Source of the DNA: a virus
Strand: one strand, 5' to 3'
Length of the DNA stretch: 28,907 bases
IMG/VR virus record: IMGVR_UViG_3300044634_002300
Coordinates: 1 to 28,907 of that record
Part shown: positions 13,763 through 24,465 of the stretch, piece after piece
Position numbering within the stretch: the stretch's first letter is position 1
How the letters are laid out: each line of letters starts with the position of its first letter
Translations under genes and position numbers: made by a program
The notes under the pieces: generated by a model
Told to the model about the DNA's origin: nothing
Database searches by the model: none
What the model saw: the letters and a program-made list of their open reading frames with translations, nothing else

Positions 13763-14215
13763 ATGACAGAACCTACCTGGACTTACAAGGGTAGGATGAT
13801 CACTAAAATTTCCGATATGCCGGAAGGCACTTACGGATTTATCTACCAGATCACCCACACCCCTACCAACAAAAAATATATCGGCAAGAAAGTCATGTAC
13901 TTTACCCGGAAGGTTAAGCTCACCAAAAAAGAGATCGCCGAACAGACTGGCCCTGGCCGCAAGCCTATCACCAAGTTAGTCACCAAAGAAAGTGACTGGG
14001 CTAGTTACTACGGATCCAACAAAGAGTTCTTATCTTTAACCAGAACCTTCCCTAAAGAAGAATTCCAGAAAGAGATTTTAGAACTTGCTACCGGTAAAAA
14101 GATGCTTACTTACTATGAGTGTAAATATTTATTTAAATACGGTGCCATTGAGAATAATCAGTTATACTACAACGATAACATATTAGGTAAATTCTACAGG
14201 AAAGATTTTATATGA
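13763..14215 (+). CDS. GIY-YIG-like endonuclease (Seg-type, small)
   Basis: The protein has 150 residues. The N-terminal part carries a GIY-YIG-like signature: Y24-G25-F26-I27-Y28 followed by K38-Y39-I40-G41. Next come a basic region (VKLTKKEIAEQTGPGRKPIT) and an ASYYGSNKEF segment, as in Seg-like phage nucleases, where a Tyr-Gly-Ser element follows the Arg/Lys region. A downstream EFQKEILELATG helix and a Glu in TYYECKYLF are candidate catalytic Glu positions. GIY-YIG enzymes cut DNA, often as homing endonucleases. No C-terminal DNA-binding repeat is visible, so it may be a free-standing nuclease or a structure-specific enzyme. The stop overlaps the next start (ATGA). Confidence 0.75.
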   Translation: MTEPTWTYKGRMITKISDMPEGTYGFIYQITHTPTNKKYIGKKVMYFTRKVKLTKKEIAEQTGPGRKPITKLVTKESDWASYYGSNKEFLSLTRTFPKEEFQKEILELATGKKMLTYYECKYLFKYGAIENNQLYYNDNILGKFYRKDFI

Positions 14216-14751
14216 AACTAATCCAAGCACTTCTTACTGAGAGCACTTACTCTAAGATCAAAGATGCTTTTAAAGCAGCTGGAGCTACTTATGTAGGAGC
14301 AGGATCTGAAGGAGTTGTTTATAATGCACCCAATCCCGTACCGGAATTCGGTTACCAGCCTAAAGAAGGGTATCTAGTTAAAATCACCCAGGATGACATC
14401 GAAATGCAAGCTATGGTAAAAGCCCAGGGTAAAAAATTTAAATACCTAGCAAACATCGGTAAGGCAGTTAAGATGGAAAAAGGAGGGTGGTATCAAATCG
14501 AAAACCTGCAGCCAGTCTCTCAGGAATACTCTCAGGAAATTAAAAAGAACGTTCGTATATTAGATCAGTTCTTTAGCGAAGGAGATAAGAGCCTACTTTC
14601 AAACCTATCCCCGTACCTGCAGAAGGTCTTTACCGGTGCAAGGGAGGAGCTGGTTCAAACCGGCATTGATCCTGAAGAAGTTGATATGTTTGGAGATGAC
14701 AACAACGTAATGGCAACCGCCGACGGTCAAATAAAGTTAATCGACTATTAA
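14212..14751 (+). CDS. minimal protein-kinase-like protein with CTS-like N-terminus
   Basis: The protein has 179 residues. It begins MKLIQALLTES, where L8-T9-E10|S11 matches the T4 capsid-targeting signal and cleavage pattern. After it comes a glycine-rich loop G29-A-G31-S-E-G34-V-V-Y, followed by a beta-3-like YLVKITQ, which could hold the ATP-binding Lys. Near the C-terminus, DDNNVMATADGQIKLIDY resembles the Asn and 'D-[FY]-G' metal-binding parts of eukaryotic-like kinases (LIDY in place of DFG). The total length is well below a normal kinase (~250 residues), so it may be a minimal or degenerate kinase fold. The start overlaps the nuclease gene by four bases. If the N-terminal signal is real, it would be packaged in the head. 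Confidence 0.68.
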   Translation: MKLIQALLTESTYSKIKDAFKAAGATYVGAGSEGVVYNAPNPVPEFGYQPKEGYLVKITQDDIEMQAMVKAQGKKFKYLANIGKAVKMEKGGWYQIENLQPVSQEYSQEIKKNVRILDQFFSEGDKSLLSNLSPYLQKVFTGAREELVQTGIDPEEVDMFGDDNNVMATADGQIKLIDY

Positions 14752-16556: not shown

Positions 16557-17468
16557 ATGGGAGGAAACGTATTTGGAACTACAGATAAGATTAACAGGGA
16601 GGATATCAAACCTACCCTGCTTAACTTTTTAAAAGAATTCAAAAGGTTATTCCCCGCAGCCGAACCGCACTTCAGGCAGATGCAGACCCTAGGCTCTGCC
16701 GGCAAGAAAGAGGTATCTGGAGATATCGATTTAGCGATCTCAGACCAAAGCTTTGATAAGATCCAGGACTGGGGGTTAGATCAGAAGCACGTCCAGGAAC
16801 TCTTTGAACTTTTTAAAAAGAGATCTAGGACAGCCTCTGAAGACCAGCTTATGAAAAGAGCTGTGATCGTAGCTATTGCCGAAAAAATCCAAGAGTCTGA
16901 TACCAACCTTGCTGTTGATGTAAAAGGATCTTCCGCAGGAGCGCTATTCCTCCAAGCCCCTCAGTTTAATGAGGCAGGAGAGCAGTTAGAGAAAAACGTT
17001 CAGATTGATATAAACGTAGGAGATATAGACTGGCTTAAGTTCGCTTATTACTCTAGCGTTTACTCCGGTAACGTTAAGGGCCTGCATAGGACCCAGCTCC
17101 TGGTAGCTTTATTTGCTAACAAAGGATATATCTTCTCCCATAACTACGGAGTTAAGAACAAAGACACCCAGGAAGTAGAAGCTAAAACTCCTGCCCAGGC
17201 CATCGAGCTACTAAACAAACTCTACGGCGCTGATTTCAGCAATGAGATATTAGAGAACTATTTTAGCATCATTGAATCCCTTAAGAAGAACTTAAGTGAG
17301 CAGGACCTGAACAGAGTCTACGACATCTACCTTAAGATACTTGACAGCACCCGGGCCGATATCCCGGAAGATCTTCAGGATTACTGGATTGCCAGCCAGG
17401 AGAGGTTACAGCTAAAGGGTAAATTTTTACCCGAGGATTCAAATCTTATAAAGTACCAGATTAAATGA
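16557..17468 (+). CDS. nucleotidyltransferase-fold protein 1
   Basis: The protein has 303 residues. It begins MGGNVFGTTDKINRED and carries a nucleotidyltransferase (Pol beta-type) motif: G46-S47 followed by D56-I-D58 (GSAGKKEVSGDIDLAI). A third acidic residue is likely D151 in KNVQIDINVG, or else D121. The rest is helical (LNKLYGADFSNEILENYFS and on). This fold transfers nucleotidyl groups to nucleic acids, proteins or small molecules; the substrate is not known. The start is an A-rich leader (AAAAAAATG) without a Shine-Dalgarno sequence. The stop overlaps the next gene by four bases (ATGA), and that gene begins with a second such domain, so the two probably form a pair. No CTS-like N-terminus is seen. 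Confidence 0.78.
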   Translation: MGGNVFGTTDKINREDIKPTLLNFLKEFKRLFPAAEPHFRQMQTLGSAGKKEVSGDIDLAISDQSFDKIQDWGLDQKHVQELFELFKKRSRTASEDQLMKRAVIVAIAEKIQESDTNLAVDVKGSSAGALFLQAPQFNEAGEQLEKNVQIDINVGDIDWLKFAYYSSVYSGNVKGLHRTQLLVALFANKGYIFSHNYGVKNKDTQEVEAKTPAQAIELLNKLYGADFSNEILENYFSIIESLKKNLSEQDLNRVYDIYLKILDSTRADIPEDLQDYWIASQERLQLKGKFLPEDSNLIKYQIK

Positions 17469-20389
17469 GCGGTGTAGCAGGAGGAAATAGAATCAAGAGA
17501 CAGAACGTCCAGGATACGTTCAACGATTTTACTGAGAAGGTACTCAGTAAGATCCCCGGCTATAAAGTCTCCAGTCTTTCCGGGAGCGTGAAAGCAGGTT
17601 CAAAGCCTGACTTTGGTGACCTAGACATTATCGCTACCTTTGAGTATGATGATAAGAAAGTAGCCAAGCAGGCGATCATCGATACGGTATCAAAGATGCC
17701 CGATTCCTTGATTATGCCTTTTAAAAGCGAGAGGTATGCCGGTAAAAGATTCTACAATTCAGGAGAGATCATCTCGGTACTATATCCTATCAAAGGAGCA
17801 CCCGGTGAATCAATCCAGGTAGATATTATGGTATCGCTATCGGAGGTAGAGCATCAGTTTAAGAACTCGTTCCTGGACCTACCCGCAGAAGTACAGGGTT
17901 TGATCTTAGGATTAGTTAAGACTGCGCTGCTGGAGCAGGATCCGGCCGAAGTATTTGCCCGTCTGGGAATCAAGAACGTACCGCCTTTAGAAGCAAATCA
18001 GGAATACGAATTCAACCTCTCTAGTGTAAATTTAACCCTTAGAAAAGTAACTCTGGATAATTTCAAAGAAATAGCTAGAGAAGAGATTTGGAAATCCAAT
18101 AACTGGGAGGATATTAAAAACCTTCTTAAGGACTTTGATTTAAGCCAGTCTTTTGAAAAACTTTTAGACCAGGTCACAAGCTCACTAAAAAATCCTAGAA
18201 GTAAGAACCGCGTAGCGGGAATCTTCCGCTCGATGGTATCAGTTAAGTCCGGGGAAGTAGGTACTCCTAAAGGAGACAATAAAGAAAAGGCTTTAGCGGC
18301 CGTTGCTCAAACGCTAACTGAAGCAGAAGGAACTGTGATCGGACTTTACGGGGGCGGCTTCAAACCACCTCACCGCGGTCACTTCCACATCGCTAAAGAG
18401 CTAGCCAAGGATGTAGATTTAATCAAGATTTACATCGGTGGTAGGATCAGAGAGGGAGAAATAATCACAGCTCAGCAGTCAAAAGAGATCTGGGAGGTAT
18501 ATGCAAAGTACTTAGGTAAGCCTACCGAGATTGAAATCGCTCCGATCACACCTATCCTTTCAATCTACCAGGAGATCGAAGCTAACCCAAAGCAAGACTA
18601 TGTAGTAGGTTCTTCTAGCGAACCGGGAGATGTAGGTAAATTTAAAGCTTTGCAGCTTAACAAAGACAATTTCTACGATAAAGCAAAATTAAAAATTGTG
18701 TCAACGATCAACGAAGAAAAACTATCTGCTACTACAGTCAGAACAGATGCCGAGTACCTAAAAACAGGTCAATGGATGCCTGAAGAACTTTCAGCAGACG
18801 ATAAAAAAGCAGTACTCGGAATTTTAAAAGCAACTCCTGAGTACAAAATGGCTGAAGCCATCGATGATGTATTTAGCAACTTCCTAGGAGAAAGCAAAAA
18901 AGAAAAAGCAGAAAAGGAAGAAGAGACTTCGGAAGTTAGTATGGGTACTCCCGTCACCCCGATCTCGGTCGTCCCATCGGTAGTCCGTCAAAGGATGCAA
19001 GACCTTACGGTTTACTTCCGGGATTTAGCCCCGGATGATGTCATCGTTGATTTCAACGGTCAATCGATCGTCATCACCCCGATGATCTACAACAAGGCTG
19101 AACCAACAGGACCTGCTGACTTTACACCCCAGCAAAAACCCATCAACGAATTAGGAACGTACTTCAACTACGTACCGTATATCGCCGGGATACTTGAGCA
19201 TATGATAGCTAAAGGTATGAAGGTAGTCCCGCTACCGGACATCAAAACCAGACAAGATGAAGAAAACGCTGCTAAGACTTTTGGTAAGACTGCTACGTAC
19301 GATCCTGGTAAGAAAGAAGTCGTGCTGTATGTGACAGGCCGTCACCCCAAAGACGTTATGAGGTCTTTCTGCCATGAGATGATTCACCATATGCAGAATC
19401 TAGAAGGACGTCTGCCGATGATCACTACCACCAACACCCAGGAGGATTCAGCGTTAAACGAGATCGAAAAAGAGGCACATTTCCTGGGAAGTATGACTAT
19501 GAGAGAGTACGAAGATTCGATCAAAAATCAAGATACCCTAGAAGAAGGTACCAAATACCGCTCCATCGTTGCTGATGTTAGGCAGGCTGTTAACGATGCT
19601 TTAAACGTTTTAATAACGGGGAAAGAAGAGCTAAAAAAACAAGCGAAGGATTTAAAGTTAAAAGGTGAAATAGAAAAAGCGAATAAACTTTTAAAATCTA
19701 TAAATAAAGTTAAAGGATATAACATTAAGACCATAAGAGAGCCTGGGAAGAAGGACATTGAGATTGCCGGAAAGTACGGAATGTCCTCTTTAGGAGCTAT
19801 GCTATCAACAGAATCCCAGGTAGCGTACCTAGGAGAGTTTACAAGCCAGAGCGAGAAAGGAACTAGATCAAAAGACGGTAAACCGATCACTGTAGAAGTT
19901 AACCTAAAGTTTGCTCAATCTAATGAGGTCAAGCCCGGGGAGTACTACATCGACGGAGAGGCTTCATCAGATGACGGTGAACTAGATATTATAATAGCGT
20001 TTAATCCCGGAGACGGTGCTAGCCTCCTTCAAAAGATACAACCTACTTTGACCGATCTCATCCGTCACGAGATCGAACACCTTACCCAGTCCGGAGCCCA
20101 GCTCCAGCCCACCAAATGGATGCGAGGTGACCTAGCCATGCGCAAGAGGATAAGGCAGAATCCAGAGACATTCTACAAGTACTTCATGCTACCTAAAGAA
20201 GTAGATGCAAACATCCAAGGGCTTTACATGAAAGCAAACTACGACAAGACTGACTTTCAGTCAACTGTCGATCAGTACTTAGATAGCTTGGTTGATACAG
20301 AAGTAATATCGGTAGAAAAGAGGAAAGAAGTCTACGATAAGTTTAAAGCCCGGATCCCTCAGATCGGAGGCATACCAAACCTAAATTAA
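17465..20389 (+). CDS. 974-aa multidomain protein: nucleotidyltransferase, cytidylyltransferase, two HExxH metallopeptidase domains
   Basis: The protein reads as four modules. (1) Residues 1-286: a nucleotidyltransferase with G40-S41, D52-L-D54 and D120. (2) 287-476: a nucleotidyl/cytidylyltransferase with G293-LYGGGFKPPHRGH (the GxFxPxHxGH-type nucleotide site) and a downstream SATTVRT. (3) 477-694: a zinc peptidase with C636-HEMIH (H637, E638, H641) and a likely third ligand in EIEKEAH (about 666-672). (4) 695-974: a second zinc peptidase with HEIEH (868-872) and a likely Glu ligand in PKEVDANIQG (E912). The boundaries coincide with LTE286|A, LGE476|S and LEE694|G, which fit the T4-type prohead protease rule. 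A polyprotein processed in the capsid is inferred. It is coupled to the preceding nucleotidyltransferase by an ATGA overlap and ends two bases before the next ATG. Confidence 0.82.
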   Translation: MSGVAGGNRIKRQNVQDTFNDFTEKVLSKIPGYKVSSLSGSVKAGSKPDFGDLDIIATFEYDDKKVAKQAIIDTVSKMPDSLIMPFKSERYAGKRFYNSGEIISVLYPIKGAPGESIQVDIMVSLSEVEHQFKNSFLDLPAEVQGLILGLVKTALLEQDPAEVFARLGIKNVPPLEANQEYEFNLSSVNLTLRKVTLDNFKEIAREEIWKSNNWEDIKNLLKDFDLSQSFEKLLDQVTSSLKNPRSKNRVAGIFRSMVSVKSGEVGTPKGDNKEKALAAVAQTLTEAEGTVIGLYGGGFKPPHRGHFHIAKELAKDVDLIKIYIGGRIREGEIITAQQSKEIWEVYAKYLGKPTEIEIAPITPILSIYQEIEANPKQDYVVGSSSEPGDVGKFKALQLNKDNFYDKAKLKIVSTINEEKLSATTVRTDAEYLKTGQWMPEELSADDKKAVLGILKATPEYKMAEAIDDVFSNFLGESKKEKAEKEEETSEVSMGTPVTPISVVPSVVRQRMQDLTVYFRDLAPDDVIVDFNGQSIVITPMIYNKAEPTGPADFTPQQKPINELGTYFNYVPYIAGILEHMIAKGMKVVPLPDIKTRQDEENAAKTFGKTATYDPGKKEVVLYVTGRHPKDVMRSFCHEMIHHMQNLEGRLPMITTTNTQEDSALNEIEKEAHFLGSMTMREYEDSIKNQDTLEEGTKYRSIVADVRQAVNDALNVLITGKEELKKQAKDLKLKGEIEKANKLLKSINKVKGYNIKTIREPGKKDIEIAGKYGMSSLGAMLSTESQVAYLGEFTSQSEKGTRSKDGKPITVEVNLKFAQSNEVKPGEYYIDGEASSDDGELDIIIAFNPGDGASLLQKIQPTLTDLIRHEIEHLTQSGAQLQPTKWMRGDLAMRKRIRQNPETFYKYFMLPKEVDANIQGLYMKANYDKTDFQSTVDQYLDSLVDTEVISVEKRKEVYDKFKARIPQIGGIPNLN

Positions 20390-20391
20390 AG

Positions 20392-20952
20392 ATGGGAGTA
20401 TTAGCAGATTTACTACTTACTGAAGAAGAGCAGAATCCAAAACCTAGAGGCAAGCTCTTCTGTGATATGGACGGAGTGCTGACGGACTTCGATCAGAGGT
20501 TTGATCACTACTTTGAAATGCTTCCAGCCGAGTATGAAGAACGGAGAGGCAAGGCAGGGTTCTGGAGTGCCATCGCCCCGATCGGGCAGATCTTCTGGGA
20601 AGGAATGGAATGGACTCCTTACGGAAAAGTTTTATGGAAGCACATCCAGGATTTTAATCCTACTTTACTTACCGCTCCTTCATCCGAGCAATCATCCAGA
20701 GACGGCAAAGTAGAATGGGCGAATAGAGAACTTGATCCTATCCCTCCTATCATCTTTAGACAAGCTAAAGAAAAGCACCTAGAATGCTCCGGACCCGATG
20801 ACATCTTGATCGATGACCGGGAAGATACTATCGAGAGATGGAAAGATGCCGGAGGAATAGGAATTTATCACCCCAAGAACGGGGATCCCACCTTAATTAT
20901 CAGAAGATTAGAAACACTAGGTTATGTCAAGCCATCTAAAGAAGGAATTTGA
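20392..20952 (+). CDS. HAD-superfamily phosphatase with CTS-like N-terminus
   Basis: The protein has 186 residues. The N-terminus MGVLADLLLTEEEQ has L9-T10-E11, a match to the CTS cleavage pattern. The HAD core follows: LFCDMDGVLTDF with D25 (nucleophile) and D27; a Thr/Ser motif near LLTAPSS; a basic residue element in FRQAKEKHLE (motif II-type Lys region); and DILIDDREDTIERW with D141/D142 as motif III. This is typical of 5'-nucleotidase (NT5C)-like HAD enzymes, which remove phosphates from nucleotides. The substrate is unknown. The start lies two bases after the 974-residue gene. It overlaps the next gene by 29 bases. Confidence 0.82.
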   Translation: MGVLADLLLTEEEQNPKPRGKLFCDMDGVLTDFDQRFDHYFEMLPAEYEERRGKAGFWSAIAPIGQIFWEGMEWTPYGKVLWKHIQDFNPTLLTAPSSEQSSRDGKVEWANRELDPIPPIIFRQAKEKHLECSGPDDILIDDREDTIERWKDAGGIGIYHPKNGDPTLIIRRLETLGYVKPSKEGI

Positions 20953-24085: not shown

Positions 24086-24130
24086 ATAAGAACTACTATG
24101 AAACTAATAGACCTACTTTTAGAAGAAAAA
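24084..24130 (+). repeat. dispersed repeat of leader and CTS-like codons, copy 1
   Basis: The leader AAATAAGAACTACT plus the ATG and ten codons encoding MKLIDLLLEE is repeated at 24419-24465 with about five mismatches in 47 bases (leader AAATAAGAAGTATT). The repeat includes non-coding leader, so it reflects DNA-level copying rather than protein selection only. Confidence 0.75.
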
Positions 24131-24424: not shown

Positions 24425-24465
24425 GAAGTATTATGAAACTAATTGACCTTCTCTTAGAAGAAACT
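24419..24465 (+). repeat. dispersed repeat of leader and CTS-like codons, copy 2
   Basis: Second copy of the leader-plus-signal repeat described at 24084, here AAATAAGAAGTATT followed by the codons for MKLIDLLLEE. The two copies sit 335 bases apart in front of unrelated gene bodies, so a short unit may have been copied to new genes. Confidence 0.75.

Follow-up and report, generated by a model that had tools for sequence, protein, structure and literature searches.

The DNA analysed here, a 28,907-nucleotide virus fragment from IMG/VR (record IMGVR_UViG_3300044634_002300) referred to below as the window, encodes on its plus strand a protein that appears to consist of a minimal protein kinase domain preceded by a short leader. 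The translation of the open reading frame at 14212-14751 is exactly the 179-amino acid protein described in an earlier sequence-only reading and contains all the elements named there, namely, G29, G31 and G34 of the glycine loop, DDNNVM, the LIDY terminus and the MKLIQALLTE start. The features relevant to the analysis are as follows, with conservation given as counts in the family alignment of 38 sequences.

14212..14751, plus strand: gene for a predicted minimal protein-kinase-fold protein, 179 aa, ending one residue past the DFG Asp
14212..14241, plus strand: leader MKLIQALLTE, predicted capsid-targeting sequence, with a putative cut after Glu10
14296..14313, plus strand: glycine-rich loop G29-A-G31-S-E-G34 (G31 and G34, 38/38; G29, 35/38)
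14380..14382, plus strand: beta-3 Lys57 (38/38; register as in kinases)
14401..14403, plus strand: alpha-C Glu64 (38/38; within model helix 62-71)
14683..14685, plus strand: Asp158, candidate HRD-type catalytic Asp (24/38 in this column; present in every aligned window-clade member)
14704..14706, plus strand: catalytic-loop Asn165 (38/38)
14743..14745, plus strand: DFG Asp178, the penultimate residue (38/38)
24098..24127, plus strand: similar leader, MKLIDLLLEE, on an unrelated 108-aa protein
24433..24462, plus strand: similar leader, MKLIDLLLEE, on an unrelated 73-aa protein

Twenty close copies of the gene are 86-100% identical to that in the window, and there are more distant relatives, two with 69% identity and one (L024) with 35-40%. 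Those of them that were aligned all start with MKLIQALL and finish with LIDY, and the relatives share the boundaries of the window gene. Because the start and stop sites of the relatives coincide and comparisons of the window copy with eight relatives give dN/dS of 0.10-0.25, sequence comparison identifies the reading frame as a genuine gene; the identical termination of the aligned relatives and the same dN/dS values rule out a frameshift or a truncated pseudogene. The upstream neighbor, a SegE/GIY-YIG gene, overlaps the kinase gene by 4 bases, an overlap also found in L024 and another relative, L022, and a DNA primase gene follows 57 bases downstream. The upstream gene (13763-14215) is labeled 'NAD synthetase' by PHROG 447 and in the record of the cultivated phage immuto (see below), whereas Pfam assigns it to the SegE GIY-YIG endonucleases (E 1.2e-25); the former label looks wrong. 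Further downstream, the window encodes a 974-aa protein (17465-20389) of odd multidomain make-up: one stretch (GLYGGGFKPPHRGH) is cytidylyltransferase/NMN-AT-like, and two motifs of the HExxH type, HEMIHH and HEIEH, resemble those of zinc proteases.

Iterated searches yielded 99 confirmed IMG/VR loci of this family, 80 of which were retained. In addition, a tblastn search starting from L024 led to a protein of a cultivated virus, gp093 of Flavobacterium phage immuto (YP_010114590.1), which is cultivated on Flavobacterium sp. LMO8. This 146-aa 'hypothetical protein' occupies the same place as the window protein, before DNA primase and exonuclease, and shares with it an [L/I]xE leader and the end at the DFG Asp, but is 28% identical to it and lacks an Asp where the canonical HRD motif would have one. 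A large clade within the family, approximately 40-47% identical to gp093, is denoted here the marine clade, a working label rather than a checked habitat. The family is virus-only and single-copy: the kinase gene is present once per genome in eight of the eight long relatives examined, with no second copies; no relatives were detected in a scan of bacterial and archaeal genome contigs; tblastn found no match to the family in cultivated phages other than immuto; and the family profile does not match RaK2, CBB, T4 or T7. Two copies from the immuto clade are interrupted in the data, one (L053:4001-4441) by an in-frame stop at residue 57 and the other (L057:4001-4436) apparently by a frame change. 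Directly upstream of the kinase, members of the marine and immuto clades encode a small protein that itself starts with a leader-like sequence (L066:3679-3978 and L025:15515-15994; C-terminal halves alike by eye); it is absent from this place in the window and is a possible partner.

The fold was settled by the addition of distant family members to the alignment. With nine close homologues only, AlphaFold2 produced an uninformative model (pLDDT 48), whereas with the 38-sequence family alignment, pLDDT reached 92.2 and pTM 0.85, all five models scoring 91-92. The model contains, in the order typical of kinases, a beta-1/beta-2 hairpin (residues 26-38), beta-3 (54-59), alpha-C (62-71), beta-4/beta-5 (82-97), helices at 104-129, alpha-E (134-149), the catalytic loop and beta-7/beta-8 (166-176). 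The 50 PDB matches listed by Foldseek, with a best E of 8.9e-5 and prob of 0.98-1.00, are without exception protein kinases; their TM-scores are just 0.35-0.48 and rmsd mostly 7-9 A, values that could be due to differences in how the lobes are set. VIA-align (Z up to 9.4) superposed residues 17-179 of the model on residues 1-146 of CDK2, so that the protein ends at the position of the DFG Phe. In a viral structure library, T7-type protein kinases were among the top matches (E about 1e-6).

Profile comparisons point in the same direction. When the family HMM was run against all PDB sequences, the best 60 of 101 matches were all kinases, the top one aligning in register from the G-loop to DFG; with a best E of just 0.02, no individual match is significant, and it is the uniform kinase identity of the matches that appears telling. 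Pfam Pkinase is the commonest weak match of the members (14/38; best member E 0.037), more common than that to the HipA-like kinases (HipA_2; 3/38, best E 0.012), which is under the curated cut-off. For immuto gp093, the best weak matches were to Pkinase, from the catalytic loop to DFG, and to a T7 kinase PHROG (phrog_15752, E 0.15). No kinase match was obtained for the window protein alone against Pfam, where the curated Pkinase cut-off was not reached, or PHROGs, nor with a profile of only its close copies against PDB; PADLOC defense models gave no meaningful match. The fold and profile alignments to kinases run from the N-lobe to the DFG Asp. The kinase-like fold suspected from the letters of the protein is thus borne out by a model with pLDDT 92 and by fold and profile matches that are essentially confined to protein kinases, and we consider it nearly certain that the window protein adopts this fold.

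The residues that are invariant in all 38 aligned members are Glu10, G31, G34, K57, T59, D61, E64, G92, P154, N165, M167, K175 and D178. K57, which is the beta-3 Lys anticipated in the sequence-only reading and is in register with kinases, E64, N165 and D178 correspond to the positions through which kinases hold ATP-Mg. N165, the Mg-binding Asn of the catalytic loop, is the second Asn in DDNNVM. In the window clade, where this region reads VDMFGDDNNVM, Asp158 lies seven residues ahead of Asn165, compared to the canonical five (HRDxxxxN); in the marine clade, ELDIRPSNVM conforms to the canonical D-x4-N arrangement; and in the immuto clade (PDLEGPGGSIKMDNIM), S, K, R or M takes the place of Asp at the usual HRD position. 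In the phylogenetic tree, rooted at the midpoint only, the immuto clade has a long branch (1.14) and joins the canonical-Asp members at forks supported by values of 98/98 and 100/100, a position that fits loss of the Asp. The non-canonical spacing of the HRD-type Asp in the window clade calls for caution in choosing between a kinase and a pseudokinase; the chances that the window-clade protein is catalytically active seem about even or slightly better.

Because D178 is the penultimate residue in every one of the 38 aligned members, the chain stopping one residue after it, the family consistently lacks the activation segment along with the C-lobe helices that would come after DFG; a complete C-lobe with an activation segment and APE is absent in 38/38, and with it the usual peptide-binding surface. 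The protein had been described as shorter than normal kinases and as having LIDY instead of DFG. The LIDY end is indeed there, but its Asp represents that of DFG, so that the motif is cut short rather than replaced. The missing part of the C-lobe is not encoded by the following gene, which is the DNA primase in the window and an unrelated membrane-like protein in immuto.

Disorder in the model is confined to the leader, residues 1-8 being the sole stretch with pLDDT under 50 and the first helix starting at residue 12. Conservation is also higher in the leader than in the domain: the window protein and L024 are identical at 9 of the 10 leader residues, compared to 58 of the 159 in the domain. 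In the family alignment, residue 8 is Leu or Ile and residue 10 is Glu in 38/38, whereas residue 9 varies (G, K, T or S). The internal proteins of T4 have a capsid-targeting sequence of 10 residues, of which residues 4 and 7 are important for targeting and residues 8 and 10 for processing, as in IPIII, where the latter two control processing (PMC9026906); the [L/I]8-x-E10 register of the window leader matches that of IPIII. Three matches to M-K-L-x-x-x-L-[hydrophobic]-x-E are present in the window (14212, 24098 and 24433) against an expected 0.01, although the pattern, having been composed after these leaders were seen, describes them more than it tests them. In immuto, the block from 100.8 to 125.3 kb that holds the kinase, picked only once its genes had been seen, has [L/I]xE with Glu at residues 8-13 in 13 of 32 CDS. 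The rest of the genome gives 22 of 199 CDS (Fisher p 1.2e-4), and offset positions of the same CDS as in the block give 5/88.

The protease that would be needed to process such a leader is encoded by the relatives. Peptidase_S77, the T4 gp21-type prohead protease, was found in all eight long relatives (E <= 4.7e-32), two of which belong to the window's own 87-90% identity group; a gp23-type capsid gene was found in five of the five relatives checked; and the immuto annotation includes gp20/gp21/gp23-type genes. These protease and capsid genes lie in the relatives, outside the window fragment. The immuto prohead protease (L114:7661-8242) itself contains, near its N-terminus, LLTE/S (MNNPLLINVTPFKGLLTES; the slash denotes a putative cut). 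These residues are identical to those flanking the cut predicted for the window kinase, as would be consistent with autocleavage. Given the invariant Glu10, the IPIII-like register, the higher conservation of the leader than of the domain and the gp21-type protease in the relatives, the part of the sequence-only reading that took MKLIQALLTE for a head-targeting signal is upheld as a prediction that we regard as quite likely to be correct.

Kindred leaders are found on several other proteins. In close relatives of the window, unrelated proteins of 127 and 136 aa (L121:1501-1881, G001:119463 on, and L119:1501-1908) start with MKLISALLSE/S and MKLISALLQE/S, respectively. A zeta-toxin-like P-loop protein of a marine-clade relative (L066:6587-7519; Pfam E 8.8e-13), with the start MIKLTDLILE/S, is a candidate for another packaged enzyme. 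The window itself is rich, between 20392 and 28039, in small proteins with [L/I]xE leaders (starts at 20392, 21517, 22448, 24098, 24433, 24641, 25700 and 27421; also 2213), and those in this region are candidate internal head proteins.

The family appears to combine traits of two known systems. Like the T7 gp0.7 Ser/Thr kinase and JSS1_004, it has the kinase fold in a phage protein, and T7-type kinases phosphorylate host and defense proteins (PMC12345140). Read by eye, the gp0.7 core (GNGHFSAAY, RVIKV, DMHSGN, ITDP) ends shortly past the DFG-type Asp, in DMHSGN...YITDPVSF, with a second domain following, and so seems to end as in the window family; hhalign of the family against gp0.7 gave only marginal similarity (prob 28.6, 60 columns around the G-loop). 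The two differ in that gp0.7 is produced early in the infected cell, lacks an evident capsid-targeting leader and carries a shut-off domain at its C-terminus; the window family has nothing after the kinase core and hence no host shut-off domain of the gp0.7 style. With T4 IPI-IPIII and Alt, in contrast, the family shares a short leader at the N-terminus in which residue 8 is Leu/Ile and residue 10 is Glu; the T4 leaders are cleaved by gp21, and the proteins are carried in the head (PMC9026906). The T4 cargo is an ADP-ribosyltransferase or a restriction inhibitor, whereas the putative cargo of the window family is a kinase fold.

From the computed kinase fold, active-site conservation, conserved truncation and leader, and the gp21- and gp23-type genes of the relatives, we infer packaging, cleavage, injection, catalysis and the nature of the targets; T4 Alt and T7 gp0.7 are the precedents from which we propose that the protein is packaged, is injected and acts early on host proteins. 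The kinase, comprising the N-lobe, alpha-E, the catalytic loop and beta-7/beta-8 up to the DFG Asp, would be synthesized late in infection and docked in the prohead core by its 10-residue leader. The gp21-type prohead protease would then cut the leader off after Glu10, and the mature domain (residues 11-179) would be retained in the DNA-filled head and enter the host along with the genome. In the host, it would bind ATP and phosphorylate, or bind, host proteins ahead of phage gene expression, plausibly blunting defense or host gene expression in the manner of the T7 gp0.7/JSS1_004 kinases. Whereas head packaging of the family is probable, the complete scenario of a minimal T4-type myovirus kinase that is packaged, cleaved, injected and phosphorylates host proteins has, in our estimation, about an even chance of being correct. 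More tentatively, these proteins might be active 'half-kinases', complete to the DFG Asp, that are packaged via the leader and phosphorylate defense or takeover targets at DNA entry, the leader being common to a rotating set of otherwise unrelated effectors to which they belong.

The most serious alternative is that the protein is delivered in the same way but is a pseudokinase that acts by binding, as a nucleotide sensor, a decoy, or an inhibitor of a host kinase or defense protein. The displaced HRD-type Asp of the window clade, the absence of this Asp on the long immuto branch and the missing activation segment all speak for such a role, but the ATP-Mg residues are invariant throughout the alignment, D158 is found in every aligned window-clade member and the marine clade retains the canonical DIRPSN, so that we consider a pseudokinase possible but less likely than an active kinase.

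Two other explanations, both improbable in our view, concern the leader. The protein could be a head-assembly factor rather than an injected effector, with proteins of the core, the shell or the protease as its substrates or binding partners in the prohead during assembly; a leader that targets the prohead is what one would expect of such a factor, gp21 also cleaves T4 core proteins (PMC9026906), and the gene is single-copy in each long relative checked. However, it sits between tail-fiber and DNA-metabolism genes, away from the capsid genes, and in T4 the proteins that have such short leaders (IPI-III and Alt) are brought into the host (PMC9026906). Alternatively, the protein could be an ordinary intracellular phage kinase, with an N-terminal peptide involved in membrane or partner binding. 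The peptide does resemble an amphipathic helix, and LxE is short and occurs elsewhere too, as in the 22 of 199 CDS outside the immuto block, but an invariant Glu10 in the T4 IPIII register, conservation exceeding that of the domain, the sharing of the leader by unrelated proteins and the presence of the cognate protease in relatives argue against this reading and for packaging in the head.

Phage kinases and T4 capsid targeting are each already known; the family itself is a new phage-kinase family. If borne out, these would be, to our knowledge, the first virion-delivered phage protein kinases; the open-access literature searched yielded neither the pairing of a conserved targeting leader with a kinase that stops at the DFG Asp nor a published virion proteome or packaged phage kinase. 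If the proposed scenario is true, T4-type phages, with hosts that, judged from the cultivated relative only, are probably Bacteroidota, deliver a kinase with their DNA that would meet host defenses ahead of any phage gene expression, and the leader would be a simple sequence handle for listing the proteins that these largely uncharacterized phages may inject. The family would also show the minimum size of a working kinase and provide a natural active-site series, from canonical in the marine clade through altered in the window to apparently inactive in the immuto clade. With one member carried by a cultivated phage-host pair, the family is open to direct testing.
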